Positions 3,895-48,828 of a DNA stretch of 64,000 nt are shown piece after piece. The stretch lies in contig CM067360.1 of assembly GCA_034401795.1 (NCBI GenBank), forward strand, positions 51,295,574 through 51,359,573, given 5' to 3'. The notes below the pieces were generated by a model that was given only the letters and a program-made list of their open reading frames with translations, was not told where the DNA came from and ran no database searches. Every line of letters starts with the position of its first letter. Position 1 is the stretch's first letter. This DNA is from Chaetoderma sp. LZ-2023a (Eukaryota; Mollusca; Caudofoveata; Chaetodermatida; Chaetodermatidae). A program made the translations under genes and the position numbers.

Positions 3895-4838
3895 GCCTGT
3901 GAAAGGGCGCCTGCCTAATGGATTCCAATGCTGGACATCTGGTTAGAAAGCGTTCCAATGTTTCCTGTTCAGATTTACATAGCTGGCATAATGGATTGAT
4001 TATATCTTTTTAAAATCTACTTCCGGTCTCTTGTAGTAAATATATTCCAGTGAGAAGTTTAAATTTTACCGATATACGCGCTGCATCTCTTTCAGAAGAG
4101 CAGTCATCTTGTAGTACAGAATGCAGTTTTCCTTGGAATAAATGGTATTTCATTCAGGTACGTCAGTGAACTGTACCCTGGTACTTGATATTTCTTCCTT
4201 CCATGTCCTTGATCGGTCTTCCTTCCAGTACAGCCGAATAGCTTTCTTAATCAGGGACTTCCACTTCTCCTTCTATATCGGTTCATCCAGATATACTTCA
4301 GCATCCTCTAAGCAATACTTCTGCAATATTCTTTTTAACTTCATAAACCAGCTGTGACTTTCAATAGATTTTACATATAGTTGTCGCTTAGCTATTTTCC
4401 TTTCAAGTGCTGATTCAGTCAGATTGCAGATAGAATTAAAAAGCATAAGTGCCTTATGATGAACTAGTGCTTCAACTGGATCAGCTGTGTTCTTTTGTGG
4501 TACTTCTCCAGTTTGGACAGATGCAGACTTATGACTTCAAGTCCGTAAGTTAAAAAAGGCGCTATGTTGATTTTAAAAAGGTGACTAATCGTAACCGAAT
4601 CAAGGCAATTGTGGCCATGGTATCCTGATGAAAAAAGAGTGTACGCTGTCCGCCGTACCTTCTTTATACTGTTATCCACGTTGTCGCCATGTACTATGTT
4701 CTCCTTCAATGATGAACATCTTGTTACTCCCAAATGGGCACCAGCAGTCCCGACCGGCATCTGTTGATCTTCTAAGAAGAATTCATCGGCATAGTTATAT
4801 CTATAAGTCGGAGATATTGTAATAGAAACACCTTTCAT
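3895..4838 (-). pseudogene. Broken LINE reverse-transcriptase 3' half
   Basis: Minus-strand frames read in order through the C-terminal part of a non-LTR retrotransposon polyprotein. 4838-4464 encodes a 124-residue stretch with HLGVTR followed by the 'RRTAYTLFSSGYHG...APFLTYGLEV' thumb-type region typical of LINE reverse transcriptases. A frameshift near 4470 moves the reading to SWFMKLKRILQKYCLED and on to WKSLIKKAIRLYWKED, and near 3930-3990 a further frame reads CQLCKSEQETLERFLTRC, a zinc-knuckle-like C-terminal motif. Several stops and frameshifts make it inactive. The 5' side is cut off at about 4838, where the satellite leader begins. It differs in sequence from the LINE at 42-47 kb. 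The piece 4714-4838 was copied into the satellite spacers. Confidence 0.75.
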
Positions 4839-4918
4839 AGGTTGAATATTTAGCAGGTTTAACTATGGTTAGTGAGTCTAACTTGACCCTAGTAGAGGTA
4901 TCAGATTTGTGACTCAAA
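4714..4918 (+). repeat. Founder copy of the satellite spacer block
   Basis: This ~205-bp block consists of the end of the LINE fragment (4714-4838, minus-strand coding) plus a ~80-bp leader starting GTTGAATATTTAGCAGGTTT and ending TTTGTGACTCAAATA just before the first 37-bp monomer. Near-identical copies recur 23 times inside the array. Only here is the block continuous with further LINE sequence to the left, so it is the most likely ancestral copy. It differs from most internal copies at CAGCAGTCCCG (others CAGCTGTCCCG) and TCGGCATAG (others TCGCAAAG). Confidence 0.8.
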
Positions 4919-7900
4919 TAGCTGACTTCATAATCAAAATACATCACTATCATGTTAGCTGACTTCATAATCAAAATACATCACTATCTTGTTAGCTGAC
5001 TTCATAATCAAAATACATCACTATCTTGTTAGCTGACTTCATAATCAAAATACATAACTATCTTGTTAGCTGACTTCATAATCAAAATACATCACTATCT
5101 TGTTAGCTGACTTCATAATCAAAATACATCACTATCATGTTAGCTGACTTCATAATCAAAATACATCACTATCTTGTTAGCTGACTTCATAATCAAAATA
5201 CATCACTATCTTGTTAGCTGACTTCATAATCAAAATACATCACTATCTTGTTAGCTGACTTCATAATCAAAATACATCACTATCTTGTTAGCTGACTTCA
5301 TAATCAAAATACATCACTATCTTGTTAGCTGACTTCATAATCAAAATACATCACTATCTTGTTAGTTGACTTCATAATCAAAATACATCACTATCTTGTT
5401 AGCTGGCTTCATAGTCAAAATACATCACTATCTTGTTAGCTGACTTCATAATCAAAATACATCACTATCTTGTTAGCTGACTTCATAATCAAAATACATC
5501 ACTATCTTGTTAGTTGACTTCATAATCAAAATACATCACTATCTTGTTAGCTGACTTCATAATCAAAATACATCACTATCTTGTTAGTTGACATCATAGT
5601 CAAAATACATCACTATCTTGTTAGCTGGCTTCATAGTCAAAATACATCACTATCTTGTTAGCTGACTTCATAATCAAAATACATCACTATCTTGTTAGTT
5701 GACTTCATAGTCAAAATACATCACTATCTTGTTAGCTGACTTCATAATCAAAATACATCACTATCTTGTTAGCTGATTTCATAATCAAAATACATCACTA
5801 TCTTGTTAGCTGACTTCATAATCAAAATACATCACTATCTTCTTAGCTGACGTAATAATCAAAATATATCACTATCTTGTTAGCTGACTTCATAATCAAA
5901 ATACATCACTATCTTGTTAGTTGACTTTATAGTCAAAATACATCACTATCTTGTTAGTTGACTTCATAATCAAAATACATCACTGTCTTGTTAGTTGACT
6001 TTATAGTCAAAATACATCACTATCTTGTTAGTTGACTTCATAATCAAAATACATCACTATCTTGTTAGCTGACGTAATAGTCAAAATACATCACTATCTT
6101 GTTAGCTGACTTCATAATCAAAATACATCACTATCTTGTTAGCTGATTTCATAATCAAAATGCATCACTATCTTGTTAGCTGACTTCATAATCAAAATAC
6201 ATCACTATCTTGTTAGTTGACTTCATAGTCAAAATACATCACTATCTTGTTTAGCTGACTTCATAATCAAAATACATCACTATCTTGTTAGCTGATTTCA
6301 TAATCAAAACACATCACTATCTTGTTAGCTGACTTCATAATCAAAATACATCACTATCTTGTTAGCTGACTTCATAATCAAAATACATCACTATCTTGTT
6401 AGCTGACTTCATAATCAAAATACATCACTATCTTGTTAGCTGACTTCATAATCAAAATACATCACTATCTTGTTAGCTGACTTCATAATCAAAATACATC
6501 ACTATCTTGTTAGCTGACTTCATAATCAAAATACATCACTATCTTGTTAGCTGACTTCATAATCAAAATACATAACTATGAACATCTTGTTACTCCCAAA
6601 TGGGCACCAGCTGTCCCGACCGGCATCTGTTGATCTTCTAAGAAGAATTCATCGCAAAGTTATATCTATAAGTCGGAGATATTGTAATAGAAACACCTTT
6701 CATAGGTTGAATATTTAGCAGGTTTAACTATGGTTAGTGAGTCTAACTTGACCCTAGTAGAGGTATCAGATTTGTGACTCAAATAGCTGACTTCATAATC
6801 AAAATACATCACTATCATGTTAGCTGACTTCATAATCAAAATACATCACTCTCTTGTTAGCTGATTTCATAATCAAAATACATCACTATCTTGTTAGCTG
6901 ACTTCATAATCAAAATACATCACTATCTTGTTAGCTGACTTCATAATCAAAATACATCACTCTCTTGTTAGCTGATTTCATAATCAAAATACATCACTAT
7001 CTTGTTAGCTGACTTCATAATCAAAATACATCACTATCTTGTTAGCTGACTTCATAATCAAAATACATCACTATCTTGTTAGCTGACGTTTTAATCAAAA
7101 TACATCACTATCTTGTTACTTGACGTAATAATCAAAATACATCACTATCTTGTTAGCTGACTTCATAATCAAAATACATCACTATCTTGTTAGTTGACTT
7201 TATAGTCAAAATACATCACTATCTTGTTAGTTGACTTCATAATCAAAATACATCACTGTCTTGTTAGTTGACTTTATAGTCAAAATACATCACTATCTTG
7301 TTAGTTGACTTCATAATCAAAATACATCACTATCTTGTTAGTTGACTTCATAATCAAAATACATCACTATCTTGTTAGCTGACGTAATAGTCAAAATACA
7401 TCACTATCTTGTTAGCTGACTTCATAATCAAAATACATCACTATCTTGTTAGCTGATTTCATAATCAAAATACATCACTATCTTGTTAGCTGACTTCATA
7501 ATCAAAATACATCACTATCTTGTTAGTTGACTTCATAGTCAAAATACATCACTATCTTGTTTAGCTGACTTCATAATCAAAATACATCACTATCTTGTTA
7601 GCTGATTTCATAATCAAAACACATCACTATCTTGTTAGCTGACTTCATAATCAAAATACATCACTATCTTGTTAGCTGACTTCATAATCAAAATACATCA
7701 CTATCTTGTTAGCTGACTTCATAATCAAAATACATAACTATGAACATCTTGTTACTCCCAAATGGGCACCAGCTGTCCCGACCGGCATCTGTTGATCTTC
7801 TAAGAAGAATTCATCGCCATAGTTATATCTATAAGTCGGCGATATTGTAATAGAAACACCTTTCATAGGTTGAATATTTAGCAGGTTTAACTATGGTTAG

Positions 7901-10900
7901 TGAGTCTAACTTGACCCTAGTAGAGGTATCAGATTTGTGACTCAAATAGCTGACTTCATAATCAAAATACATCACTATCATGTTAGCTGACTTCATAATC
8001 AAAATACATCACTATCTTGTTAGCTGACTTCATAATCAAAATACATCACTATCTTGTTAGTTGACTTCATAATCAAAATACATCACTGTCTTGTTAGTTG
8101 ACTTTATAGTCAAAATACATCACTATCTTGTTAGTTGACTTCATAATCAAAATACATCACTATCTTGTTAGCTGACTTCATAATCAAAATACATCACTAT
8201 CTTGTTAGCTGACTTCATAATCAAAATACATCACTATCTTGTTAGCTGACTTTTTGATCAAAATACATCACTATCTTGTTACTTGACGTAATAATCAAAA
8301 TACATAACTATCTTGTTAGCTGACTTCATAATCAAAATACATCACCATCTTGTTAGCTGACTTCATAATCAAAATACATCACTATCTTGTTAGCTGACTT
8401 CATAATCAAAATACATCACTATCTTGTTAGCTGACTTCATAATCAAAATACATCACTATCTTGTTAGTTGACTTCATAATCAAAATACATCACTATCTTG
8501 TTAGCTGACTTCATAATCAAAATACATCACTATCTTGTTAGCTGGCTTCATAGTCAAAATACATCACTATCTTGTTAGCTGACTTCATAATCAAAATACA
8601 TCACTATCTTGTTAGCTGACTTCATAATCAAAATACATCACTATCTTGTTAGTTGACTTCATAATCAAAATACATTACTATCTTGTTAGCTGACTTCATA
8701 ATCAAAATACATCACTATCTTGTTAGTTGACATCATAGTCAAAATACATCACTATCTTGTTAGCTGGCTTCATAGTCAAAATACATCACTATCTTGTTAG
8801 CTGACTTCATAATCAAAATACATCACTATCTTGTTAGTTGACTTCATAGTCAAAATACTTCACTATCTTGTTAGCTGACTTCATAATCAAAATACATCAC
8901 TATCTTGTTAGCTGATTTCATAATCAAAATACATCACTATCTTGTTAGCTGACTTCATAATCAAAATACATCACTATCTTCTTAGCTGACGTAATAATCA
9001 AAATATATCACTATCTTGTTAGCTGACTTCATAATCAAAATACATCACTATCTTGTTAGTTGACTTTATAGTCAAAATACATCACTATCTTGTTAGTTGA
9101 CTTCATAATCAAAATACATCACTGTCTTGTTAGTTGACTTTATAGTCAAAATACATCACTATCTTGTTAGTTGACTTCATAATCAAAATACATCACTATC
9201 TTGTTAGCTGACGTAATAGTCAAAATACATCACTATCTTGTTAGCTGACTTCATAATCAAAATACATCACTATCTTGTTAGCTGATTTCATAATCAAAAT
9301 ACATCACTATCTTGTTAGCTGACTTCATAATCAAAATACATCACTATCTTGTTAGTTGACTTCATAGTCAAAATACATCACTATCTTGTTTAGCTGACTT
9401 CATAATCAAAATACATCACTATCTTGTTAGCTGATTTCATAATCAAAACACATCACTATCTTGTTAGCTGACTTCATAATCAAAATACATCACTATCTTG
9501 TTAGCTGACTTCATAATCAAAATACATCACTATCTTGTTAGCTGACTTCATAATCAAAATACATCACTATCTTGTTAGCTGACTTCATAATCAAAATACA
9601 TCACTATCTTGTTAGCTGACTTCATAATCAAAATACATAACTATGAACATCTTGTTACTCCCAAATGGGCACCAGCTGTCCCGACCGGCATCTGTTGATC
9701 TTCTAAGAAGAATTCATCGCAAAGTTATATCTATAAGTTGGAGATATTGTAATAGAAACACCTTTCATAGGTTGAATATTTAGCAGGTTTAACTATGGTT
9801 AGTGAGTCTAACTTGACCCTAGTAGAGGTATCAGATTTGTGACTCAAATAGCTGACTTCATAATCAAAATACATCACTATCATGTTAGCTGACTTCATAA
9901 TCAAAATACATCACTCTCTTGTTAGCTGATTTCATAATCAAAATACATCCCTATCTTGTTAGCTGACTTCATAATCAAAATACATCACTATCTTGTTAGC
10001 TGACTTCATAATCAAAATACATCACTATCTTGTTAGCTGACTTCACAATCAAAATACATCACTATCTTGTTAGCTGACTTCATAATCAAAATACATCACT
10101 ATCTTGTTAGCTGACTTCATAATCAAAATACATCACTATCTTGTTAGCTGATTTTTGATCAAAATACATCACTATCTTGTTACTTGACGTAATAATCAAA
10201 ATACATAACTATCTTGTTAGCTGACTTCATAATCAAAATACATCACCATCTTGTTAGCTGACTTCATAATCAAAATACATCACTATCTTGTTAGCTGACT
10301 TCATAATCAAAATACATCACTATCTTGTTAGCTGACTTCATATTCAAAATACATCACTATCTTGTTAGTTGACTTCATAATCAAAATACATCACTATCTT
10401 GTTAGCTGACTTCATAATCAAAATACATCACTATCTTGTTAGCTGGCTTCATAGTCAAAATACATCACTATCTTGTTAGCTGACTTCATAATCAAAATAC
10501 ATCACTATCTTGTTAGCTGACTTCATAATCAAAATACATCACTATCTTGTTAGTTGACTTCATAATCAAAATACATCACTATCTTGTTAGCTGACTTCAT
10601 AATCAAAATACATCACTATCTTGTTAGTTGACATCATAGTCAAAATACATCACTATCTTGTTAGCTGGCTTCATAGTCAAAATACATCACTATCTTGTTA
10701 GCTGACTTCATAATCAAAATACATCACTATCTTGTTAGTTGACTTCATAGTCAAAATACATCACTATCTTGTTAGCTGACTTCATAATCAAAATACATCA
10801 CTATCTTGTTAGCTGACTTCATAATCAAAATACATCACTATCTTGTTAGCTGATTTCATAATCAAAACACATCACTATCTTGTTAGCTGACTTCATAATC

Positions 10901-13900
10901 AAAATACATCACTATCTTGTTAGCTGACTTCATAATCAAAATACATCACTATCTTGTTAGCTGACTTCATAATCAAAATACATAACTATGAACATCTTGT
11001 TACTCCCAAATGGGCACCAGCTGTCCCGACCGGCATCTGTTGATCTTCTAAGAAGAATTCATTGCAAAGTTATATCTATAAGTCGGAGATATTGTAATAG
11101 AAACACCTTTCATAGGTTGAATATTTAGCAGGTTTAACTATGGTTAGTGAGTCTAACTTGACCCTAGTAGAGGTATCAGATTTGTGACTCAAATAGCTGA
11201 CTTCATAATCAAAATACATCACTATCATGTTAGCTGACTTCATAATCAAAATACATCACTCTCTTGTTAGCTGATTTCATAATCAAAATACATCCCTATC
11301 TTGTTAGCTGACTTCATAATCAAAATACATCACTATCTTGTTAGCTGACTTCATAATCAAAATACATCACTATCTTGTTAGCTGACTTCACAATCAAAAT
11401 ACATCACTATCTTGTTAGCTGACTTCATAATCAAAATACATCACTATCTTGTTAGCTGACTTCATAATCAAAATACATCACTATCTTGTTAGCTGATTTT
11501 TGATCAAAATACATCACTATCTTGTTACTTGACGTAATAATCAAAATACATAACTATCTTGTTAGCTGACTTCATAATCAAAATACATCACCATCTTGTT
11601 AGCTGACTCCATAATCAAAATACATCACTATCTTGTTAGCTGACTTCATAATCAAAATACATCACTATCTTGTTAGCTGACTTCATAATCAAAATACATC
11701 ACTATCTTGTTAGTTGACTTCATAATCAAAATACATCACTATCTTGTTAGCTGACTTCATAATCAAAATACATCACTATCTTGTTAGCTGGCTTCATAGT
11801 CAAAATACATCACTATCTTGTTAGCTGACTTCATAATCAAAATACATCACTATCTTGTTAGCTGACTTCATAATCAAAATACATCACTATCTTGTTAGTT
11901 GACTTCATAATCAAAATACATTACTATCTTGTTAGCTGACTTCATAATCAAAATACATCACTATCTTGTTAGTTGACATCATAGTCAAAATACATCACTA
12001 TCTTGTTAGCTGGCTTCATAGTCAAAATACATCACTATCTTGTTAGCTGACTTCATAATCAAAATACATCACTATCTTGTTAGTTGACTTCATAGTCAAA
12101 ATACTTCACTATCTTGTTAGCTGACTTCATAATCAAAATACATCACTATCTTGTTAGCTGATTTCATAATCAAAATACATCACTATCTTGTTAGCTGACT
12201 TCATAATCAAAATACATCACTATCTTCTTAGCTGACGTAATAATCAAAATATATCACTATCTTGTTAGCTGACTTCATAATCAAAATACATCACTATCTT
12301 GTTAGTTGACTTTATAGTCAAAATACATCACTATCTTGTTAGTTGACTTCATAATCAAAATACATCACTGTCTTGTTAGTTGACTTTATAGTCAAAATAC
12401 ATCACTATCTTGTTAGTTGACTTCATAATCAAAATACATCACTATCTTGTTAGCTGACGTAATAGTCAAAATACATCACTATCTTGTTAGCTGACTTCAT
12501 AATCAAAATACATCACTATCTTGTTAGCTGATTTCATAATCAAAATACATCACTATCTTGTTAGCTGACTTCATAATCAAAATACATCACTATCTTGTTA
12601 GTTGACTTCATAGTCAAAATACATCACTATCTTGTTTAGCTGACTTCATAATCAAAATACATCACTATCTTGTTAGCTGATTTCATAATCAAAACACATC
12701 ACTATCTTGTTAGCTGACTTCATAATCAAAATACATCACTATCTTGTTAGCTGACTTCATAATCAAAATACATCACTATCTTGTTAGCTGACTTCATAAT
12801 CAAAATACATAACTATGAACATCTTGTTACTCCCAAATGGGCACCAGCTGTCCCGACCGGCATCTGTTGATCTTCTAAGAAGAATTCATCGCAAAGTTAT
12901 ATCTATAAGTTGGAGATATTGTAATAGAAACACCTTTCATAGGTTGAATATTTAGCAGGTTTAACTATGGTTAGTGAGTCTAACTTGACCCTAGTAGAGG
13001 TATCAGATTTGTGACTCAAATAGCTGACTTCATAATCAAAATACATCACTATCATGTTAGCTGACTTCATAATCAAAATACATCACTCTCTTGTTAGCTG
13101 ATTTCATAATCAAAATACATCCCTATCTTGTTAGCTGACTTCATAATCAAAATACATCACTATCTTGTTAGCTGACTTCATAATCAAAATACATCACTAT
13201 CTTGTTAGCTGACTTCACAATCAAAATACATCACTATCTTGTTAGCTGACTTCATAATCAAAATACATCACTATCTTGTTAGCTGACTTCATAATCAAAA
13301 TACATCACTATCTTGTTAGCTGATTTTTGATCAAAATACATCACTATCTTGTTACTTGACGTAATAATCAAAATACATAACTATCTTGTTAGCTGACTTC
13401 ATAATCAAAATACATCACCATCTTGTTAGCTGACTTCATAATCAAAATACATCACTATCTTGTTAGCTGACTTCATAATCAAAATACATCACTATCTTGT
13501 TAGCTGACTTCATATTCAAAATACATCACTATCTTGTTAGTTGACTTCATAATCAAAATACATCACTATCTTGTTAGCTGACTTCATAATCAAAATACAT
13601 CACTATCTTGTTAGCTGGCTTCATAGTCAAAATACATCACTATCTTGTTAGCTGACTTCATAATCAAAATACATCACTATCTTGTTAGCTGACTTCATAA
13701 TCAAAATACATCACTATCTTGTTAGTTGACTTCATAATCAAAATACATCACTATCTTGTTAGCTGACTTCATAATCAAAATACATCACTATCTTGTTAGT
13801 TGACATCATAGTCAAAATACATCACTATCTTGTTAGCTGGCTTCATAGTCAAAATACATCACTATCTTGTTAGCTGACTTCATAATCAAAATACATCACT

Positions 13901-16900
13901 ATCTTGTTAGTTGACTTCATAGTCAAAATACATCACTATCTTGTTAGCTGACTTCATAATCAAAATACATCACTATCTTGTTAGCTGACTTCATAATCAA
14001 AATACATCACTATCTTGTTAGCTGATTTCATAATCAAAACACATCACTATCTTGTTAGCTGACTTCATAATCAAAATACATCACTATCTTGTTAGCTGAC
14101 TTCATAATCAAAATACATCACTATCTTGTTAGCTGACTTCATAATCAAAATACATAACTATGAACATCTTGTTACTCCCAAATGGGCACCAGCTGTCCCG
14201 ACCGGCATCTGTTGATCTTCTAAGAAGAATTCATTGCAAAGTTATATCTATAAGTCGGAGATATTGTAATAGAAACACCTTTCATAGGTTGAATATTTAG
14301 CAGGTTTAACTATGGTTAGTGAGTCTAACTTGACCCTAGTAGAGGTATCAGATTTGTGACTCAAATAGCTGACTTCATAATCAAAATACATCACTATCAT
14401 GTTAGCTGACTTCATAATCAAAATACATCACTCTCTTGTTAGCTGATTTCATAATCAAAATACATCCCTATCTTGTTAGCTGACTTCATAATCAAAATAC
14501 ATCACTATCTTGTTAGCTGACTTCATAATCAAAATACATCACTATCTTGTTAGCTGACTTCACAATCAAAATACATCACTATCTTGTTAGCTGACTTCAT
14601 AATCAAAATACATCACTATCTTGTTAGCTGACTTCATAATCAAAATACATCACTATCTTGTTAGCTGATTTTTGATCAAAATACATCACTATCTTGTTAC
14701 TTGACGTAATAATCAAAATACATAACTATCTTGTTAGCTGACTTCATAATCAAAATACATCACCATCTTGTTAGCTGACTCCATAATCAAAATACATCAC
14801 TATCTTGTTAGCTGACTTCATAATCAAAATACATCACTATCTTGTTAGCTGACTTCATAATCAAAATACATCACTATCTTGTTAGTTGACTTCATAATCA
14901 AAATACATCACTATCTTGTTAGCTGACTTCATAATCAAAATACATCACTATCTTGTTAGCTGGCTTCATAGTCAAAATACATCACTATCTTGTTAGCTGA
15001 CTTCATAATCAAAATACATCACTATCTTGTTAGCTGACTTCATAATCAAAATACATCACTATCTTGTTAGTTGACTTCATAATCAAAATACATCACTATC
15101 TTGTTAGCTGACTTCATAATCAAAATACATCACTATCTTGTTAGTTGACATCATAGTCAAAATACATCACTATCTTGTTAGCTGGCTTCATAGTCAAAAT
15201 ACATCACTATCTTGTTAGCTGACTTCATAATCAAAATACATCACTATCTTGTTAGTTGACTTCATAGTCAAAATACATCACTATCTTGTTAGCTGACTTC
15301 ATAATCAAAATACATCACTATCTTGTTAGCTGATTTCATAATCAAAATACATCACTATCTTGTTAGCTGACTTCATAATCAAAATACATCACTATCTTCT
15401 TAGCTGACGTAATAATCAAAATATATCACTATCTTGTTAGCTGACTTCATAATCAAAATACATCACTATCTTGTTAGTTGACTTTATAGTCAAAATACAT
15501 CACTATCTTGTTAGTTGACTTCATAATCAAAATACATCACTATCTTATTAGCTGGCTTCATAGTCAAAATACATCACTATCTTGTTAGCTGACTTCATAA
15601 TCAAAATACATCACTATCTTGTTAGTTGACTTCATAGTCAAAATACATCACTATCTTGTTAGCTGACGTAATAGTCAAAATACATCACTATCTTGTTAGC
15701 TGACTTCATAATCAAAATACATCACTATCTTGTTAGCTGACTTCATAATCAAAATACATCACTATCTTGTTAGCTGACTTCATAATCAAAATACATCACT
15801 ATCTTGTTAGTTGACATCATAGTCAAAATACATCACTATCTTGTTAGCTGGCTTCATAGTCAAAATACATCACTATCTTGTTAGCTGACTTCATAATCAA
15901 AATACATCACTATCTTGTTAGTTGACTTCATAGTCAAAATACATCACTATCTTGTTAGCTGACGTAATAGTCAAAATACATCACTATCTTGTTAGCTGAC
16001 TTCATAATCAAAATACATCACTATCTTGTTAGCTGACTTCATAATCAAAATACATCACTATCTTGTTAGCTGACTTCATAATCAAAATACATCACTATCT
16101 TGTTAGTTGACTTCATAATCAAAATACATCACTATCTTGTTAGCTGACTTCATAATCAAAATACATCACTATCTTGTTAGCTGGCTTCATAGTCAAAATA
16201 CATCACTATCTTGTTAGCTGACTTCATAATCAAAATACATCACTATCTTGTTAGCTGACTTCATAATCAAAATACATCACTATCTTGTTAGTTGACTTCA
16301 TAATCAAAATACATCACTATCTTGTTAGCTGACTTCATAATCAAAATACATCACTATCTTGTTAGTTGACATCATAGTCAAAATACATCACTATCTTGTT
16401 AGCTGGCTTCATAGTCAAAATACATCACTATCTTGTTAGCTGACTTCATAATCAAAATACATCACTATCTTGTTAGTTGACTTCATAGTCAAAATACATC
16501 ACTATCTTGTTAGCTGACTTCATAATCAAAATACATCACTATCTTGTTAGCTGATTTCATAATCAAAATACATCACTATCTTGTTAGCTGACTTCATAAT
16601 CAAAATACATCACTATCTTCTTAGCTGACGTAATAATCAAAATATATCACTATCTTGTTAGCTGACTTCATAATCAAAATACATCACTATCTTGTTAGTT
16701 GAATTTATAGTCAAAATACATCACTATCTTGTTAGTTGACTTCATAATCAAAATACATCACTGTCTTGTTAATTGACTTTATAGTCAAAATACATCACTA
16801 TCTTGTTAGTTGACTTCATCATCAAAATACATCACTATCTTGTTAGCTGACGTAATAGTCAAAATACATCACTATCTTGTTAGCTGACTTCATAATCAAA

Positions 16901-18261
16901 ATACATCACTATCTTGTTAGCTGATTTCATAATCAAAATACATCACTATCTTGTTAGCTGACTTCATAATCAAAATACATCACTATCTTGTTAGTTGACT
17001 TCATAGTCAAAATACATCACTATCTTGTTTAGCTGACTTCATAATCAAAATACATCACTATCTTGTTAGCTGATTTCATAATCAAAACACATCACTATCT
17101 TGTTAGCTGACTTCATAATCAAAATACATCACTATCTTGTTAGCTTACTTCATAATCAAAATACATCACTATCTTGTTAGCTGACTTCATAATCAAAATA
17201 CATAACTATGAACATCTTGCTACTCCCAAATGGGCACCAGCTGTCCCGACCGGCATCTGTTGATCTTCTAAGAAGAATTCATCGCAAAGTTATATCTATA
17301 AGTCGGAGATATTGTAATAGAAACACCTTTCATAGGTTGAATATTTAGCAGGTTTAACTATGGTTAGTGAGTCTAACTTGACCCTAGTAGAGGTATCAGA
17401 TTTGTGACTCAAATAGCTGACTTCATAATCAAAATACATCACTATCATGTTAGCTGACTTCATAATCAAAATACATCACTCTCTTGTTAGCTGACTTCAT
17501 AATCAAAATACATCACTATCTTCTTAGCTGACGTAATAATCAAAATATATCACTATCTTGTTAGCTGACTTCATAATCAAAATACATCACTATCTTGTTA
17601 GTTGACTTTATAGTCAAAATACATCACTATCTTGTTAGTTGACTTCATAATCAAAATACATCACTGTCTTGTTAGTTGACTTTATAGTCAAAATACATCA
17701 CTATCTTGTTAGTTGACTTCATAATCAAAATACATCACTATCTTGTTAGCTGACGTAATAGTCAAAATACATCACTATCTTGTTAGCTGACTTCATAATC
17801 AAAATACATCACTATCTTGTTAGCTGATTTCATAATCAAAATACATCACTATCTTGTTAGCTGACTTCATAATCAAAATACATCACTATCTTGTTAGTTG
17901 ACTTCATAGTCAAAATACATCACTATCTTGTTTAGCTGACTTCATAATCAAAATACATCACTATCTTGTTAGCTGATTTCATAATCAAAACACATCACTA
18001 TCTTGTTAGCTGACATCATAATCAAAATACATCACTATCTTGTTAGCTGACTTCATAATCAAAATACATCACTATCTTGTTAGCTGACTTCATAATCAAA
18101 ATACATCACTATCTTGTTAGCTGACTTCATAATCAAAATACATCACTATCTTGTTAGCTGACTTCATAATCAAAATACATAACTATGAACATCTTGTTAC
18201 TCCCAAATGGGCACCAGCTGTCCCGACCGGCATCTGTTGATCTTCAACACACGTGTCATGC

Positions 18262-18761
18262 NNNNNNNNNNNNNNNNNNNNNNNNNNNNNNNNNNNNNNN
18301 NNNNNNNNNNNNNNNNNNNNNNNNNNNNNNNNNNNNNNNNNNNNNNNNNNNNNNNNNNNNNNNNNNNNNNNNNNNNNNNNNNNNNNNNNNNNNNNNNNNN
18401 NNNNNNNNNNNNNNNNNNNNNNNNNNNNNNNNNNNNNNNNNNNNNNNNNNNNNNNNNNNNNNNNNNNNNNNNNNNNNNNNNNNNNNNNNNNNNNNNNNNN
18501 NNNNNNNNNNNNNNNNNNNNNNNNNNNNNNNNNNNNNNNNNNNNNNNNNNNNNNNNNNNNNNNNNNNNNNNNNNNNNNNNNNNNNNNNNNNNNNNNNNNN
18601 NNNNNNNNNNNNNNNNNNNNNNNNNNNNNNNNNNNNNNNNNNNNNNNNNNNNNNNNNNNNNNNNNNNNNNNNNNNNNNNNNNNNNNNNNNNNNNNNNNNN
18701 NNNNNNNNNNNNNNNNNNNNNNNNNNNNNNNNNNNNNNNNNNNNNNNNNNNNNNNNNNNNN
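18262..18761. other. Assembly gap (500 N)
   Basis: Exactly 500 N, a conventional placeholder, lying inside a spacer block. Left of it the block reads normally to GATCTTC and then carries a 16-base tail AACACACGTGTCATGC found in no other block. Right of it the block resumes at TCTAAGAAG. True missing length is unknown. Confidence 0.98.
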
Positions 18762-24700: not shown

Positions 24701-27700
24701 TGACTTCATAATCAAAATACATCACTCTCTTGTTAGCTGATTTCATAATCAAAATACATCACTATCTTGTTAGCTGACTTCATAATCAAAATACATCACT
24801 ATCTTCTTAGCTGACGTAATAATCAAAATATATCACTATCTTGTTAGCTGACTTCATAATCAAAATACATCACTATCTTGTTAGTTGACTTTATAGTCAA
24901 AATACATCACTATCTTGTTAGTTGACTTCATAATCAAAATACATCACTGTCTTGTTAGTTGACTTTATAGTCAAAATACATCACTATCTTGTTAGTTGAC
25001 TTCATAATCAAAATACATCACTATCTTGTTAGCTGACGTAATAGTCAAAATACATCACTATCTTGTTAGCTGACTTCATAATCAAAATACATCACTATCT
25101 TGTTAGCTGATTTCATAATCAAAATACATCACTATCTTGTTAGCTGACTTCATAATCAAAATACATCACTATCTTGTTAGTTGACTTCATAGTCAAAATA
25201 CATCACTATCTTGTTTAGCTGACTTCATAATCAAAATACATCACTATCTTGTTAGCTGATTTCATAATCAAAACACATCACTATCTTGTTAGCTGACTTC
25301 ATAATCAAAATACATCACTATCTTGTTAGCTGACTTCATAATCAAAATACATCACTATCTTGTTAGCTGACTTCATAATCAAAATACATAACTATGAACA
25401 TCTTGTTACTCCCAAATGGGCACCAGCTGTCCCGACCGGCATCTGTTGATCTTCTAAGAAGAATTCATCGCAAAGTTATATCTATAAGTCGGAGATATTG
25501 TAATAGAAACACCTTTCATAGGTTGAATATTTAGCAGGTTTAACTATGGTTAGTGAGTCTAACTTGACCCTAGTAGAGGTATCAGATTTGTGACTCAAAT
25601 AGCTGACTTCATAATCAAAATACATCACTATCATGTTAGCTGACTTCATAATCAAAATACATCACTCTCTTGTTAGCTGATTTCATAATCAAAATACATC
25701 CCTATCTTGTTAGCTGACTTCATAATCAAAATACATCACTATCTTGTTAGCTGACTTCATAATCAAAATACATCACTATCTTGTTAGCTGACTTCACAAT
25801 CAAAATACATCACTATCTTGTTAGCTGACTTCATAATCAAAATACATCACTATCTTGTTAGCTGATTTCATAATCAAAATACATCACTATCTTGTTAGCT
25901 GACTTCATAATCAAAATACATCACTATCTTGTTAGCTGACTTCATAATCAAAATACATCACTATCTTGTTAGCTGACTTCATAATCAAAATACATCACTA
26001 TCTTGTTAGCTGACTTCATAATCAAAATACATCACTATCTTGTTAGTTGACTTCATAATCAAAATACATCACTATCTTGTTAGCTAACTTCATAATCAAA
26101 ATACATCACTATCTTGTTAGCTGGCTTCATAGTCAAAATACATCACTATCTTATTTGCTGACTTCATAATCAAAATACATCACTATCTTGTTAGCTGACT
26201 TCATAATCAAAATACATCACTATCTTGTTAGTTGACTTCATAATCAAAATACATCACTATCTTGTTAGCTGACTTCATAATCAAAATACATCACTATCTT
26301 GTTAGTTGACATCTTAGTCAAAATACATCACTATCTTGTTAGCTGGCTTCATAGTCAAAATACATCACTATCTTGTTAGCTGACTTCATAATCAAAATAC
26401 ATCACTATCTTGTTAGTTGACTTCATAGTCAAAATACATCACTATCTTGTTAGCTGACTTCATAATCAAAATACATCACTATCTTGTTAGCTGATTTCAT
26501 AATCAAAATACATCACTATCTTGTTAGCTGACTTCATAATCAAAATACATCACTATCTTCTTAGCTGACGTAATAATCAAAATATATCACTATCTTGTTA
26601 GCTGACTTCATAATCAAAATACATCACTATCTTGTTAGTTGACTTTATAGTCAAAATACATCACTATCTTGTTAGTTGACTTGATAATCAAAATACATCA
26701 CTGTCTTGTTAGTTGACTTTATAGTCAAAACACATCACTATCTTGTTAGTTGACTTCATAATCAAAATACATCACTATCTTGTTAGCTGACGTAATAGTC
26801 AAAATACATCACTATCTTGTTAGCTGACTTCATAATCAAAATACATCACTATCTTGTTAGCTGATTTCATAATCAAAATACATCACTATCTTGTTAGCTG
26901 ACTTCATAATCAAAATACATCACTATCTTGTTAGTTGACTTCATAGTCAAAATACATCACTATCTTGTTTAGCTGACTTCATAATCAAAATACATCACTA
27001 TCTTGTTAGCTGATTTCATAATCAAAACACATCACTATCTTGTTAGCTGACTTCATAATCAAAATACATCACTATCTTGTTAGCTGACTTCATAATCAAA
27101 ATACATCACTATCTTGTTAGCTGACTTCATAATCAAAATACATAACTATGAACATCTTGTTACTCCCAAATGGGCACCAGCTGTCCCGACCGGCATCTGT
27201 TGATCTTCTAAGAAGAATTCATCGCAAAGTTATATCTATAAGTCGGAGATATTGTAATAGAAACACCTTTCATAGGTTGAATATTTAGCAGGTTTAACTA
27301 TGGTTAGTGAGTCTAACTTGACACTAGTAGAGGTATCAGATTTGTGACTCAAATAGCTGACTTCATAATCAAAATACATCACTATCATGTTAGCTGACTT
27401 CATAATCAAAATACATCACTCTCTTGTTAGCTGATTTCATAATCAAAATACATCACTATCTTGTTAGCTGACTTCATAATCAAAATACATCACTATCTTG
27501 TTAGCTGACTTCATAATCAAAATACATCACTCTCTTGTTAGCTGATTTCATAATCAAAATACATCACTATCTTGTTAGCTGACTTCATAATCAAAATACA
27601 TCACTATCTTGTTAGCTGACTTCATAATCAAAATACATCACTATCTTGTTAGCTGACGTTTTAATCAAAATACATCACTATCTTGTTACTTGACGTAATA

Positions 27701-30700
27701 ATCAAAATACATCACTATCTTGTTAGCTGACTTCATAATCAAAATACATCACTATCTTGTTAGTTGACTTTATAGTCAAAATACATCACTATCTTGTTAG
27801 TTGACTTCATAATCAAAATACATCACTGTCTTGTTAGTTGACTTTATAGTCAAAATACATCACTATCTTGTTAGTTGACTTCATAATCAAAATACATCAC
27901 TATCTTGTTAGTTGACTTCATAATCAAAATACATCACTATCTTGTTAGCTGACGTAATAGTCAAAATACATCACTATCTTGTTAGCTGACTTCATAATCA
28001 AAATACATCACTATCTTGTTAGCTGATTTCATAATCAAAATACATCACTATCTTGTTAGCTGACTTCATAATCAAAATACATCACTATCTTGTTAGTTGA
28101 CTTCATAGTCAAAATACATCACTATCTTGTTTAGCTGACTTCATAATCAAAATACATCACTATCTTGTTAGCTGATTTCATAATCAAAACACATCACTAT
28201 CTTGTTAGCTGACTTCATAATCAAAATACATCACTATCTTGTTAGCTGACTTCATAATCAAAATACATCACTATCTTGTTAGTTGACTTCATAATCAAAA
28301 TACATCACTATCTTGTTAGCTGACTTCATAATCAAAACACATCACTATCTTGGTAGCTGACTTCATAATCAAAATACATCACTATCTTGTTAGCTGACTT
28401 CATAATCAAAATACATAACTATGAACATCTTGTTACTCCCAAATGGGCACCAGCTGTCCCGACCGGCATCTGTTGATCTTCTAAGAAGAATTCATCGCAA
28501 AGTTATATCTATAAGTCGGAGATATTGTAATAGAAACACCTTTCATAGGTTGAATATTTAGCAGGTTTAACTATGGTTAGTGAGTCTAACTTGACACTAG
28601 TAGAGGTATCAGATTTGTGACTCAAATAGCTGACTTCATAATCAAAATACATCACTATCATGTTAGCTGACTTCATAATCAAAATACATCACTCTCTTGT
28701 TAGCTGATTTCATAATCAAAATACATCACTATCTTGTTAGCTGACTTCATAATCAAAATACATCACTATCTTGTTAGCTGACTTCATAATCAAAATACAT
28801 CACTCTCTTGTTAGCTGATTTCATAATCAAAATACATCACTATCTTGTTAGCTGACTTCATAATCAAAATACATCACTATCTTGTTAGCTGACTTCATAA
28901 TCAAAATACATCACTATCTTGTTAGCTGACGTTTTAATCAAAATACATCACTATCTTGTTACTTGACGTAATAATCAAAATACATCACTATCTTGTTAGC
29001 TGACTTCATAATCAAAATACATCACTATCTTGTTAGTTGACTTTATAGTCAAAATACATCACTATCTTGTTAGTTGACTTCATAATCAAAATACATCACT
29101 GTCTTGTTAGTTGACTTTATAGTCAAAATACATCACTATCTTGTTAGTTGACTTCATAATCAAAATACATCACTATCTTGTTAGTTGACTTCATAATCAA
29201 AATACATCACTATCTTGTTAGCTGACGTAATAGTCAAAATACATCACTATCTTGTTAGCTGACTTCATAATCAAAATACATCACTATCTTGTTAGCTGAT
29301 TTCATAATCAAAATACATCACTATCTTGTTAGCTGACTTCATAATCAAAATACATCACTATCTTGTTAGTTGACTTCATAGTCAAAATACATCACTATCT
29401 TGTTTAGCTGACTTCATAATCAAAATACATCACTATCTTGTTAGCTGATTTCATAATCAAAACACATCACTATCTTGTTAGCTGACTTCATAATCAAAAT
29501 ACATCACTATCTTGTTAGCTGACTTCATAATCAAAATACATAACTATGAACATCTTGTTACTCCCAAATGGGCACCAGCTGTCCCGACCGGCATCTGTTG
29601 ATCTTCTAAGAAGAATTCATCGCCATAGTTATATCTATAAGTCGGAGATATTGTAGTAGAAACACCTTTCATAGGTTGAATATTTAGCAGGTTTAACTAT
29701 GGTTAGTGAGTCTAACTTGACCCTAGTAGAGGTATCAGATTTGTGACTCAAATAGCTGACTTCATAATCAAAATACATCACTATCATGTTAGCTGACTTC
29801 ATAATCAAAATACATCACTATCTTGTTAGCTGACTTCATAATCAAAATACATCACTATCTTGTTAGCTGACTTCATAATCAAAATACATAACTATGAACA
29901 TCTTGTTACTCCCAAATGGGCACCAGCTGTCCCGACCGGCATCTGTTGATCTTCTAAGAAGAATTCATCGCAAAGTTATATCTATAAGTCGGAGATATTG
30001 TAATAGAAACACCTTTCATAGGTTGAATATTTAGCAGGTTTAACTATGGTTAGTGAGTCTAACTTGACCCTAGTAGAGGTATCAGATTTGTGACTCAAAT
30101 AGCTGACTTCATAATCAAAATACATCACTATCATGTTAGCTGACTTCATAATCAAAATACATCACTCTCTTGTTAGCTGATTTCATAATCAAAATACATC
30201 ACTATCTTGTTAGCTGACTTCATAATCAAAATACACCACTCTCTTGTTAGCTGATTTCATAATCAAAATACATCACTATCTTGTTAGCTGACTTCATAAT
30301 CAAAATACATCACTATCTTGTTAGCTAACTTCATAATCAAAATACATCACTCTCTTGTTAGCTGATTTCATAATCAAAATACATCACTATCTTGTTAGCT
30401 GACTTCATAATCAAAATACATCACTATCTTGTTAGCTGACTTCATAATCAAAATACATCACTATCTTGTTAGCTGACTTTTTGATCAAAATACATCACTA
30501 TCTTGTTACTTGACGTAATAATCAAAATACATAACTATCTTGTTAGCTGACTTCATAATCAAAATACATCACCATCTTGTTAGCTGACTTCATAATCAAA
30601 ATACATCACTATCTTGTTAGCTGACTTCATAATCAAAATACATCACTATCTTGTTAGCTGACTTCATAATCAAAATACATCACTATCTTGTTAGTTGACT

Positions 30701-33700
30701 TCATAATCAAAATACATCACTATCTTGTTAGCTGACTTCATAATCAAAATACATCACTATCTTGTTAGCTGGCTTCATAGTCAAAATACATCACTATCTT
30801 GTTAGCTGACTTCATAATCAAAATACATCACTATCTTGTTAGCTGACTTCATAATCAAAATACATCACTATCTTGTTAGTTGACTTCATAATCAAAATAC
30901 ATCACTATCTTGTTAGCTGACTTCATAATCAAAATACATCACTATCTTGTTAGTTGACATCATAGTCAAAATACATCACTATCTTGTTAGCTGGCTTCAT
31001 AGTCAAAATACATCACTATCTTGTTAGCTGACTTCATAATCAAAATACATCACTATCTTGTTAGTTGACTTCATAGTCTAAATACATCACTATCTTGTTA
31101 GCTGACTTCATAATCAAAATACATCACTATCTTGTTAGCTGATTTCATAATCAAAATACATCACTATCTTGTTAGCTGACTTCATAATCAAAATACATCA
31201 CTATCTTCTTAGCTGACGTAATAATCAAAATATATCACTATCTTGTTAGCTGACTTCATAATCAAAATACATCACTATCTTGTTAGTTGACTTTATAGTC
31301 AAAATACATCACTATCTTGTTAGTTGACTTCATAATCAAAATACATCACTGTCTTGTTAGTTGACTTTATAGTCAAAATACATCACTATCTTGTTAGTTG
31401 ACTTCATAATCAAAATACATCACTATCTTGTTAGCTGACGTAATAGTCAAAATACATCACTATCTTGTTAGCTGACTTCATAGTCAAAATACATCACTAT
31501 CTTGTTAGCTGATTTCATAATCAAAATACATCACTATCTTGTTAGCTGACTTCATAATCAAAATACATCACTATCTTGTTAGTTGACTTCATAGTCAAAA
31601 TACATCACTATCTTGTTTAGCTGACTTCATAATCAAAATACATCACTATCTTGTTAGCTGATTTCATAATCAAAACACATCACTATCTTGTTAGCTGACT
31701 TCATAATCAAAATACATCACTATCTTGTTAGCTGACTTCATAATCAAAATACATCACTATCTTGTTAGCTGACTTCATAATCAAAATACATCACTATCTT
31801 GTTAGCTGACTTCATAATCAAAATACATAACTATGAACATCTTGTTACTCCCAAATGGGCACCAGCTGTCCCGACCGGCATCTGTTGATCTTCTAAGAAG
31901 AATTCATCGCAAAGTTATATCTATAAGTCGGAGATATTGTAATAGAAACACCTTTCATAGGTTGAATATTTAGCAGGTTTAACTATGGTTAGTGAGTCTA
32001 ACTTGACCCTAGTAGAGGTATCAGATTTGTGACTCAAATAGCTGACTTCATAATCAAAATACATCACTATCATGTTAGCTGACTTCATAATCAAAATACA
32101 TCACTCTCTTGTTAGCTGATTTCATAATCAAAATACATCCCTATCTTGTTAGCTGACTTCATAATCAAAATACATCACTATCTTGTTAGCTGACTTCATA
32201 ATCAAAATACATCACTCTCTTGTTAGCTGATTTCATAATCAAAATACATCACTATCTTGTTAGCTGACTTCATAATCAAAATACATCACTATCTTGTTAG
32301 CTGACTTCATAATCAAAATACATCACTATCTTGTTAGCTGACTTTTTAATCAAAATACATCACTATCTTGTTACTTGACGTAATAATCAAAATACATCAC
32401 TATCTTGTTAGCTGACTTCATAATCAAAATACATCACTATCTTGTTAGTTGACTTTACAGTCAAAATACATCACTATCTTGTTAGTTGAGTTCATAATCA
32501 AAATACATCACTGTCTTGTTAGTTGATTTTATAGTCAAAATACATCACTATCTTGTTAGTTGACTTCATAATCAAAATACATCACTATCTTGTTAGTTGA
32601 CTTCATAATCAAAATACATCACTATCTTGTTAGCTGACGTAATAGTCAAAATACATCACTATCTTGTTAGCTGACTTCATAATCAAAATACATCACTATC
32701 TTGTTAGCTGATTTCATAATCAAAATACATCACTATCTTGTTAGCTGACTTCATAATCAAAATACATCACTATCTTGTTAGTTGACTTCATAGTCAAAAT
32801 ACATCACTATCTTGTTTAGCTGACTTCATAATCAAAATACATCACTATCTTGTTAGCTGATTTCATAATCAAAACACATCACTATCTTGGTAGCTGACTT
32901 CATAATCAAAATACATCACTATCTTGTTAGCTGACTTCATAATCAAAATACATAACTATGAACATCTTGTTACTCCCAAATGGGCACCAGCTGTCCCGAC
33001 CGGCATCTGTTGATCTTCTAAGAAGAATTCATCGCAAAGTTATATCTATAAGTCGGAGATATTGTAATAGAAACACCTTTCATAGGTTGAATATTTAGCA
33101 GGTTTAACTATGGTTAGTGAGTCTAACTTGACCCTAGTAGAGGTATCAGATTTGTGACTCAAATAGCTGACTTCATAATCAAAATACATCACTATCATGT
33201 TAGCTGACTTCATAATCAAAATACATCACTATCTTGTTAGCTGACTTCATAATCAAAATACATCACTATCTTGTTAGCTGACTTCATAATCAAAATACAT
33301 CACTATCTTGTTAGTTGACTTTATAGTCAAAATACATCACTATCTTGTTAGTTGAGTTCATAATCAAAATACATCACTGTCTTGTTAGTTGATTTTATAG
33401 TCAAAATACATCACTATCTTGTTAGTTGACTTCATAATCAAAATACATCACTATCTTGTTAGTTGACTTCATAATCAAAATACATCACTATCTTGTTAGC
33501 TGACGTAATAGTCAAAATACATCACTATCTTGTTAGCTGACTTCATAATCAAAATACATCACTATCTTGTTAGCTGATTTCATAATCAAAATACATCACT
33601 ATCTTGTTAGCTGACTTCATAATCAAAATACATCACTATCTTGTTAGTTGACTTCATAGTCAAAATACATCACTATCTTGTTTAGCTGACTTCATAATCA

Positions 33701-34887
33701 AAATACATCACTATCTTGTTAGCTGATTTCATAATCAAAACACATCACTATCTTGGTAGCTGACTTCATAATCAAAATACATCACTATCTTGTTAGCTGA
33801 CTTCATAATCAAAATACATAACTATGAACATCTTGTTACTCCCAAATGGGCACCAGCTGTCCCGACCGGCATCTGTTGATCTTCTAAGAAGAATTCATCG
33901 CAAAGTTATATCTATAAGTCGGAGATATTGTAATAGAAACACCTTTCATAGGTTGAATATTTAGCAGGTTTAACTATGGTTAGTGAGTCTAACTTGACCC
34001 TAGTAGAGGTATCAGATTTGTGACTCAAATAGCTGACTTCATAATCAAAATACATCACTATCATGTTAGCTGACTTCATAATCAAAATACATCACTCTCT
34101 TGTTAGCTGATTTCATAATCAAAATACATCACTATCTTGTTAGCTGACTTCATAATCAAAATACATCACTCTCTTGTTAGCTGATTTCATAATCAAAATA
34201 CATCACTATCTTGTTAGCTGACTTCATAATCAAAATACATCACTATCTTGTTAGCTGACTTCATAATCAAAATACATCACTCTCTTGTTAGCTGATTTCA
34301 TAATCAAAATACATCACTATCTTGTTAGCTGACTTCATAATCAAAATACATCACTATCTTGTTAGCTGACTTCATAATCAAAATACATCACTATCTTGTT
34401 AGCTGACTTTTTGATCAAAATACATCACTATCTTGTTACTTGACGTAATAATCAAAATACATAACTATCTTGTTAGCTGACTTCATAATCAAAATACATC
34501 ACTATCTTGTTAGCTGACTTCATAATCAAAATACATCACTATCTTGTTAGCTGACTTCATAATCAAAATACATCACTATCTTGTTAGCTGACTTCATAAT
34601 CAAAATACATCACTATCTTGTTAGATGACTTCATAGTCAAAATACATCACTATCTTGTTAGCTGACTTCATAATCAAAATACATCACTATCTTGTTAGCT
34701 GACTTCATAATCAAAATACATCACTATCTTGTTAGTTGACTTTATAGTCAAAATACATCACTATCTTGTTAGCTGACTTCATAATCAAAATACATCACTA
34801 TCTTGTTAGCTGACTTCATAATCAAAATACATCACTATCTTGTTAGCTGATTTCATAATCAAAATACATCACTGTCTTGTTAGCTGA

Positions 34888-35445
34888 CTTCATAATCAAA
34901 ATACATCACTATCTTGTTAGTTGACTTCATAATCAAAACACATCACTATCTTGTTAGCTGACGTAATAATCAAAATAGATAACTATCTTGTTAGCTGACT
35001 TCATAATAAAAATACATCACTATCTTGTTAGCTATCCTTATAATCAAAATACATTACTGTCTTGTTAGCTGACTTCATAATCAAAATACATCACTATCTT
35101 GTTAGTTGACTTCATAATCAAAACACATCACTATCTTGTTAGCTGACGTAATAATCAAAATAGATAACTATCTTGTTAGCTGACTTCATAATAAAAATAC
35201 ATCACTATCTTGTTAGCTATCCTTATAATCAAAATACATTACTGTCTTGTTAGCTGACTTCATAATCAAAATACATCACTATCTTGTTAGTTGACTTCAT
35301 AATCAAAACACATCACTATCTTGTTAGCTGACGTAATAATCAAAATAGATAACTATCTTGTTAGCTGACTTCATAATAAAAATACATCACTATCTTGTTA
35401 GCTATCCTTATAATCAAAATACATCACTATCTTGTTAGCTGACTT
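34888..35445 (+). repeat. 185-bp pentameric higher-order repeat, three copies
   Basis: Inside the right part of the array a five-monomer unit (5 x 37 = 185 bp) is repeated three times. The diagnostic ACGTAATAATCAAAATAGAT starts at 34961, 35146 and 35331, followed by the rare variants CATAATAAAAATAC and GCTATCCTTATAATC. The copies are nearly identical, indicating a recent local amplification different from the spacer-phased blocks. Confidence 0.85.
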
Positions 35446-37542
35446 CATAATCAAAATACATAACTATGAACATCTTGTTACTCCCAAATGGGCACCAGCT
35501 GTCCCGACCGGCATCTGTTGATCTTCTAAGAAGAATTCATCGGCATAATTATATCTATAAGTCGGAGATATTGTAATAGAAACACCTTTCATAGGTTGAA
35601 TATTTAGCAGGTTTAACTATGGTTAGTGAGTCTAACTTGACCCTAGTAGAGGTATCAGATTTGTGACTCAAATAGCTGACTTCATAATCAAAATACATCA
35701 CTATCTTGTTAGCTGACTTCATAATCAAAATACATCACTCTCTTGTTAGCTGATTTCATAATCAAAATACATCACTATCTTGTTAGCTGACTTCATAATC
35801 AAAATACATCACTATCTTGTTAGCTGACTTCATAATCAAAATACATCACTATCTTGTTAGCTGACTTCATAATCAAAATACATCACTATCTTGTTAGCTG
35901 ACTTTTTAATCAAAATGCATCACTATCTTGTTAGTTGACGTAATAATCAAAATACATAACTATCTTGTTAGCTGACTTCATTATCAAAATACATCACTAT
36001 CTTGTTAGCTGACTTCATAATCAAAATACATCACTATCTTGTTAGCTGACTTCATAATCAAAATACATCACTATCTTGTTAGCTGACTTCATAATCAAAA
36101 TACATCACTATCTTGTTAGCTGACTTCATAATCAAAATACATCACTATCTTGTTAGCTGACTTCATAATCAAAATACATCACTATCTTGTTAGCTGACTT
36201 CATAATCAAAATACATCACTATCTTGTTAGTTGACTTTATAGTCAAAATACATCACTATCTTGTTAGCTGACTTCATAATCAAAATACATCACTATCTTG
36301 TTAGCTGACTTCATAATCAAAATACATCACTATCTTGTTAGCTGACGTAATAGGCAAAATACACCACTATCTTGTTAGCTGACTTCATAATCAAAATACA
36401 TCACTATCTTGTTAGCTGACTTCATAATCAAAATACATCACTATCTTGTTAGCTGACTTCATAATCAAAATACATCACTATCTTGTTAGCTGACTTCATA
36501 ATCAAAATACATCACTATCTTGTTAGTTGACTTCATAATCAAAATACATCACTATCTTGTTAGCTGACTTCATAATCAAAATACATCACTATCTTGTTAG
36601 CTGACTTCATAATCAAAATACATCACTATCTTGTTAGCTGACTTCATAAGCAAAATACATCACTATCTTGTTAGCTGACTTCATAATCAAAATACATCAC
36701 TATCTTGTTAGCTGACTTCCTAATCAAAATACATCACTATCTTGTTAGCTGACTTCATAATCAAAATACATCACTATCTTGTTAGCTGACTTCATAATCA
36801 AAATACATCACTATCTTGTTAGTTGACTTTATAGTCAAAATACATCACTATCTTGTTAGCTGACTTCATAATCAAAATACATCACTATCTTGTTAGCTGA
36901 CTTCATAATCAAAATACATCACTATCTTGTTAGCTGACGTAATAGTCAAAATACACCACTATCTTGTTAGCTGACTTCATAATCAAAATACATCACTATC
37001 TTGTTAGCTGACTTCATAATCAAAATACATCACTATCTTGTTAGCTGACTTCATAATCAAAATACATCACTATCTTGTTAGCTGACTTCATAATCAAAAT
37101 ACATCACTATCTTGTTAGTTGACTTCATAATCAAAATACATCACTATCTTGTTAGCTGACTTCATAATCAAAATACATCACTATCTTGTTAGTTGACTTC
37201 ATAATCAAAATACATCACTATCTTGTTAGCTGACTTCATAATCAAAATACATCACTATCTTGTTAGTTGACTTCATAATCAAAATACATCACTATCTTGT
37301 TAGCTGACTTCATAATCAAAATACATCACTATCTTGTTAGCTGACTTCATACTCAAAATACATCACTATCTTGTTAGTTGACTTCATAATCAAAATACAT
37401 CACTATCTTGTTAGCTGACGTAATAATCAAAATACATCACTATCTTGTTAGCTGACTTCATAATCAAAATACATCACTATCATGTTAGCTAACTTTATAA
37501 TCAAAATACATTACTGTCTTGTTAGCTGACTTCATAATCAAA

Positions 37543-38130: not shown

Positions 38131-38132
38131 TT

Positions 38133-38198: not shown

Positions 38199-38274
38199 TA
38201 TGGAAGTGAGACATAGGTGATCAAAGATCTCAAACACAGTTACATCAGTGCTGAATAAGATAAGAACACCAAGC

Positions 38275-38805
<531 letters not shown>

Positions 38806-48727: not shown

Positions 48728-48743
48728 ACTACTACTACTACTG

Positions 48744-48828
<85 letters not shown>

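Follow-up and report, generated by a model that had tools for sequence, protein, structure and literature searches.

The window analysed here is a stretch of 64,000 nucleotides from the assembly (2.44 Gb) of the mollusc Chaetoderma sp. LZ-2023a (C2:51295574-51359573, C2 being contig CM067360.1), and the system under study is a 37-bp satellite array in which short blocks of transposon-derived sequence recur. The array lies at 51.3 Mb in a contig of 138.7 Mb and was delimited with Tandem Repeats Finder (TRF), which reports 872.5 units at 4919-37542 with a score of 37740. It is assigned to the minus strand after the orientation of the element resembling a miniature inverted-repeat transposable element (MITE) that is discussed below, with reference to related 32-33-bp arrays at the loci L020-L027. 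A BLAST comparison of 4714-4919 with the window recovered 24 copies of a ~206-bp block, all on one strand; 23 are whole, with 98-100% identity, and one is split by a gap of 500 N. The array with its ~206-bp blocks had been recognized in a first-pass annotation, and TRF and BLAST bear this out, with a count of 24 blocks in place of 23. Chance is excluded as an explanation of the array and its blocks. Each block joins a piece of a long interspersed nuclear element (LINE, a non-long-terminal-repeat retrotransposon), a piece of a DNA transposon designated family T and a piece of the MITE-like element, and the repeated unit is thus a composite of at least two transposable elements (TEs).

On the plus strand, the blocks located by BLAST occupy 4714-4919 (block 1, joined on its left to the LINE), 6580-6784 (block 2), 7742-7947 (block 3), 9645-9849 (block 4), 10990-11194 (block 5), 12817-13021 (block 6), 14162-14366 (block 7), 17210-17414 (block 8), 18187-18909 (block 9, the split copy), 19756-19960 (block 10), 20622-20826 (block 11), 21488-21692 (block 12), 22428-22632 (block 13), 23479-23683 (block 14), 24345-24549 (block 15), 25396-25600 (block 16), 27150-27354 (block 17), 28423-28627 (block 18), 29548-29753 (block 19), 29896-30100 (block 20), 31835-32039 (block 21), 32960-33164 (block 22), 33826-34030 (block 23) and 35468-35673 (block 24, the rightmost). 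The distance from block to block is 236 or 237 plus a multiple of 37 bp in 17 of the 22 intervals between whole blocks. The length rule proposed earlier (206/207 + 30 + n x 37) therefore describes most of the array, but it is not exact: four of the five deviating intervals leave a residue of 2 or 36, and the fifth spans the N gap and the split block, which was itself left out of the spacing count and of the LINE-state comparison described below. The spacing varies between 348 and 3048 bp, and the constant unit length of a regular higher-order-repeat satellite is not seen; the array is thus not regularly phased by its blocks, contrary to what had been supposed. The assembly gap itself (18262-18761, placed by BLAST and inspection of the sequence) falls within block 9, of which positions 1-59 lie at 18187-18245 and positions 58-206 at 18762-18909. 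Immediately 5' of the N gap stand 16 bases of non-block sequence (18246-18261), and the block picks up after it no more than 2 bases from its break point, which suggests a contig-end or adaptor artefact. With this gap inside a block, the true length of the array and its number of blocks are uncertain.

The LINE fragment at the left edge lies on the minus strand at 3466-4846, as delimited by alignment to other LINE copies, and its last 133 bp (4714-4846), defined by BLAST and by comparison with those copies, form the LINE piece inside the amplified block. The statement that the block continues into a LINE at the left edge only is confirmed; the LINE share, put earlier at ~125 bp, is 133 bp, and the LINE extends left to ~3466 rather than ending at 3895. 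A genome search with 3600-4860 listed 50 matches and scored the best 40 of 416 candidates; the other genome searches likewise scored only the best candidates (39 of 474, 39 of 1248 and 40 of 1888), so that all family sizes given here are lower bounds, and the loci that were read are a chosen subset of these match lists. Among the 11 LINE copies read, 10 continue beyond the equivalent of 4846, where pairwise matches extend for ~240 to 1900 bases and the copies agree among themselves; the remaining copy (L019) diverges ahead of the breakpoint. As other copies run on past this base and the LINE is antisense, 4846 is the point of 5' truncation of the copy in the window. The 3' end is placed near 3466, with the first matching base at 3458-3473 in 9 of the 11 copies. 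A longer copy, L013, matches the Pfam reverse transcriptase family RVT_1 (9.9e-10), and the open frame of the fragment in the window (P0001, 132 amino acids) has no Pfam match. By the reverse transcriptase homology of the longer copy, the 5' truncation and the common 3' end, the fragment is a LINE.

For the sequence on either side of the LINE, comparison points to a single transposon with terminal inverted repeats (TIRs). Family T extends over 2932-4889 on the plus strand and measures 577 bp without its LINE insert; its 5' TIR (2932-2961) and 3' TIR (4860-4889) match at 24 of 30 bases, and a 30-base TIR probe reaches at least 19 matches outside the blocks at one place in the window only, 2932. 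The body left of the LINE (2935-3465) aligns to L012, L028, L049, L050 and L051 and partly to L052. The 43 bp 3' of 4846 (4847-4889, plus strand), which make up the first half of the leader between LINE and monomers, match the ends of dispersed family copies at three loci, as established by a leader search and comparison of the copies. In all five family T relatives compared, the parts matching the two flanks lie 0-17 bp apart, a LINE-free arrangement; L052 was left out of this count, the family T 3' end not being seen there. Both flanks of the LINE hence belong to one TIR transposon and the LINE is nested in family T, which reverses the order of insertion proposed earlier. Two other assignments were rejected. 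Family T had been considered a Helitron on account of a CTAG-like end, but its other end is an inverted repeat, and the leader, treated at one point as sequence of no assignable family, consists of the family T 3' end followed by the MITE-like terminal repeat. At L049 the match runs on from family T into this terminal repeat (86% over 51 bp); it is read as partly due to chance because L050 and L051 end where family T ends.

The MITE-like element is represented at the array edge by its 3' terminal repeat (4891-4922, minus strand), with the monomers directly next to it. The edge thus bears an element terminus in the appropriate orientation, identified by its match to the family end and by the locus L052 (C2:51232840). 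The family end matches 23 of 30 bases at 4891-4920, the best of three shuffles reaching 18; elsewhere in the flanks, it matches 28 bases at one place, 20 at three and 18 at two. In a consensus of 28 copies, a long hairpin lies in the interior and about two repeat units stand close to the 3' end. BLAST found 33 3' ends of the family, 18 of them paired with a 5' end, and 15 of these 18 copies span 317-435 bp; of the 18 pairs of inverted termini, 8 agree at no fewer than 9 of 13 bases and 16 at no fewer than 6. With its repeats at the termini and its long hairpin internal, the carrier has the TIRs of the TIR DNA transposon/MITE class and not the layout of Helentrons or HINEs.

The monomers themselves are 72-86% identical to arrays at other loci in a genome search that scored the best 39 of 474 candidates. 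Nine related arrays were read, of which eight have a period of 32-33 bp and 7 to 83 units; the ninth (L028) has a 37-bp period and ~5 units, is oppositely oriented and lies 77 kb to the left of the array. The sequence 5' of the array is common to another locus in six of the nine (L020, L021, L023, L024, L025 and L027), and the family 3' end comes after the array in L024, L026 and L027. It is likely from these comparisons that the 37-bp monomer is a diverged form of the 32-33-bp repeat near the 3' end of the MITE-like element, so that the earlier suggestion of an element carrying a short tandem repeat holds as far as the probable source of the monomer is concerned. The consensus units of several related arrays (L020, L024, L027 and L028) contain TGACGTCA, which we take to be a CREB/ATF-type site; the main 37-bp monomer in the window has TGACTTCA instead.

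Outside the array, the 37-bp monomer is rare. With at most one mismatch allowed, a 37-bp-type pattern is matched 682 times across the genome, and 678 of these matches lie inside this array. Among the four outside it, one belongs to L028 and one, at C2:51232888, falls in L052, 67 kb left of the array, where the common terminal repeat is followed by two 37-bp units and then by family T. L052 scores 65 against window positions 4891-4988 (maximum for shuffled sequence, 21), and no match to the window's LINE was found in its 2001 bases. The terminal repeat with 37-bp units therefore also occurs in the absence of the LINE, and the large array is all but confined to this locus. A search with the leader placed every full copy, 24 in number, inside this array; its three partial matches are family T. 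In this search, the block was thus not found in unlinked arrays lacking the LINE. Nor were LINEs found that already carry leader and monomers, as 10 of the 11 copies pass the breakpoint without either and the other diverges earlier. The first-pass annotation had named both findings as ones that would speak against its account. The monomers are left after the same letters, ACTAT, at L052 (~1036-1040) and at the founding junction in the window (6579/6580); the sequence that follows differs, being family T in L052 and LINE in the window.

All 23 derived blocks are preceded by the same 32 bp, which end in mid-monomer, and this single lead-in indicates that the unit goes back to one event in which a monomer became joined to LINE base 4714. 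Monomer and LINE have only AT in common at the joint. A 9-bp sequence present in both LINE and monomer, ATCTTGTTA, was considered as the recombination site and rejected, the true junction lying a few bases before it. Two positions were then compared with the LINE copies, L019 being omitted because it diverges before the breakpoint. At 4746, A is the base in all 10 LINE copies and in block 1, against T in the remaining 22 whole blocks; at 4792, T is found in all 10 LINE copies and in 4 of 23 blocks (those starting at 4714, 7742, 29548 and 35468) and A in the other 19. As the LINE state at 4746 occurs, among the 23 whole blocks, in the LINE-linked block alone, block 1 is the source, and the rightmost block is, on such comparison, among the early descendants. 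The proposal that a unit of LINE end, leader and monomers was amplified from the left edge thus gains support from both the common 32 bp and the state at 4746. As to later growth, the units at 9645-10989 and 12817-14161 are identical at 1345 of 1345 bases, two more pairs differ by one base (1050/1051 and 865/866), and a stretch of two units recurs with 30 mismatches over 3171 aligned bases; other pairs differ more. When coded as strings of monomers, units have common starts and ends with gains and losses in between, and the 721 monomer strings parsed fall into 71 kinds in a structured order, although the parse merges some adjacent monomers. This pattern of growth fits unequal exchange in place.

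Taken together, these comparisons make it quite probable that the array is a local composite satellite, in which MITE-derived monomers were joined to the LINE by one tandem duplication and the resulting unit was amplified by exchange. The starting point, shown by the comparison of loci, is a dispersed MITE-like element with about two 32-33-bp units just inside its 3' end; at this locus, a MITE-like end with 37-bp units adjoins the TIR transposon that already held the 5'-truncated LINE. Next, most likely, the 37-bp units would have expanded through slippage or through unequal exchange, an expansion that the 32-33-bp units underwent elsewhere. A single tandem duplication, suggested by the one common junction, would have joined a monomer to LINE base 4714 and so created a repeat unit in which the ends of the LINE, of the transposon and of the MITE-like element are combined with monomers. 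Finally, to judge from the comparison of units, unequal exchange within the monomers would have produced the 24 assembled copies, varied in length and homogenized.

Rolling-circle replication of an excised circle carrying LINE end, leader and monomers, followed by reinsertion at the home locus, would also account for the single orientation and the one junction common to the blocks. It is nevertheless unlikely, as unit lengths vary mostly by 37-bp steps, the units have a mosaic make-up with gains and losses inside them, and the source block has kept its place at the edge. Another possibility is that the array is largely an artefact of assembly, its repeats over-expanded or mis-joined, and the 500-N gap in a block, the 16 foreign bases before it and the unit pair identical over 1345 bp are what such an error might leave behind. 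This is a distinctly improbable account of the whole, however, because the blocks contain a nested set of variants that the LINE copies polarize and because the monomer strings, for all their 71 kinds, are ordered. The first-pass annotation had favoured a repeat-bearing element inserted in a LINE, with LINE end, leader and monomers then amplified, and the contact between LINE and leader, together with the 10 of 11 LINE copies that go past 4846, is what such an insertion would give. The first 43 bp after the LINE, however, form one end of a transposon, the opposite end of which is found left of the LINE, the LINE 3' end is likewise within family T, and alignment to LINE copies found no LINE remainder right of the array; with 4846 being a 5' truncation and both flanks family T, insertion into the LINE is very improbable. 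The mean likeness of 98.6% over the LINE part of whole blocks would suit a functional block (in nucleosome phasing, as a boundary or as a promoter) kept by selection. This is barely credible, since whole units, monomers included, reach an equal likeness in recent duplications, the spacing is irregular (348-3048 bp) and scans of the window gave no tRNA and no Rfam family at the gathering score; the array is most likely a neutral or selfish by-product of recombination in which the blocks are passengers.

Several observations weigh against a composite satellite of MITE-derived monomers amplified in place. No clear target-site duplication is seen around the LINE, and the 5' body of the MITE-like element was not found between 37543 and 40583, so that the array is not flanked by both MITE-like ends. 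The presence of the element at the locus hence rests on the ~32-bp terminal repeat, its orientation and L052, and its derivation as the source of the monomers on homology. The half that is missing must have been either lost or relocated; the copy at 40583-40947 was considered as this lost body and rejected, since on its own it is close to full length and has the look of an independent insertion. At two of the related arrays, L022 and L028, neither side could be shown to be the element. Many old copies have weak inverted termini (10 of 18 pairs agree at fewer than 9 of 13 bases), and the 18 pairs include one exact 2-bp target-site repeat and none longer, in old copies with ends placed by alignment. 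Of the 682 pattern matches, two have no assigned location, and the N gap and the identical units leave room for assembly error.

The origin of satellites from tandem repeats internal to TEs is established according to published accounts (e.g. PMC4079207, PMC7004042), and the array is a variant of this known process that is unusually readable. The closest description is that of Tetris/TIR-220 in Drosophila virilis, a non-autonomous element that has inverted termini and from whose internal tandem repeats satellite arrays of kilobase size arose (PMC4079207). The carrier here similarly has inverted termini and internal repeats that expanded into a satellite; in that account, however, the ~220-bp repeat lies inside the TIR and the satellite consists of those repeats only, whereas the unit here crosses the element end and includes the ends of a DNA transposon and a LINE. 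The miDNA4 MITE with its Xstir repeat in Xenopus is likewise a MITE with an internal repeat of variable copy number, described as a potential satellite, and the passage on it mentions no co-amplified neighbouring TEs (PMC12628747), unlike the situation here. The same 2025 review puts forward, as a hypothesis, an origin of composite satellite DNA monomers from 'TE graveyards' (PMC12628747). Its outline of a tandem unit made from pieces of several adjacent TEs in heterochromatin resembles the present array in the make-up of the unit; the route was proposed for monomers of unclear origin, whereas source locus, nesting and founding junction can be read here. In Lathyrus sativus, short TE-internal arrays also expand at times; there, the carrier is a long-terminal-repeat retrotransposon, and the abstract names no composite unit (PMC7004042). 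The oyster Cg_HINE elements are dispersed, non-autonomous and equipped with central tandem repeats like the element here, but are described as Helentrons (PMC7492417). HINEs are characterized by subterminal inverted repeats, of which the 3' repeat lies 38-60 bp from the end, and by a palindrome near the 3' end (PMC4067079), in contrast to the inverted repeats at the very ends of the present element. Neighbouring TEs join in the expansion of tandem arrays in rye as they do here, although that report concerns many subtelomeric arrays in a plant (PMC4857426) and not one array with one founding junction. No composite satellite with its source locus still attached is named in the titles and abstract openings covered, a scope that excludes most subscription journals and makes this weak evidence of absence.

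It is possible, if somewhat short of probable, that the locus records the birth of a composite satellite in directly readable form, from three nested or abutting mobile elements, with the founding junction kept and the source block still linked to its LINE. The beginnings of satellites are usually blurred by homogenization; here, the order of events would be legible, from a TE-internal repeat through a nested LINE and one duplication to amplification with intermediate blocks ranked by their common changes. If this is correct, the proposed recycling of 'TE graveyards' becomes testable allele by allele. As 678 of the 682 matches are at this locus, alleles from other individuals or sister species could show intermediates, and such alleles could tell unequal exchange from rolling-circle amplification.

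At its right edge, the array gives way to an AT-rich stretch (37543-37577), recognized from the window sequence and alignments, and then to another dispersed repeat family (37578-38270), many listed copies of which start at 37578-37580. Further copies or pieces of the MITE-like element lie in the window at 40583-40947, 41034-41275, 59110-59415, 62462-62704 and 63215-63497. TRF also reports trinucleotide repeats of the TAC/GTA type, of up to 178 units, at 38276-38809, 48727-48916 and 53430-53868. On the minus strand at 43987-47451 there are three long open stretches (253, 367 and 563 amino acids) in overlapping frames, which by eye only resemble the RNase H, reverse transcriptase and endonuclease of a second, far less decayed LINE. 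Over this second LINE, at 44001-48000, the AT skew of the plus strand is strong (-0.28 and -0.24).

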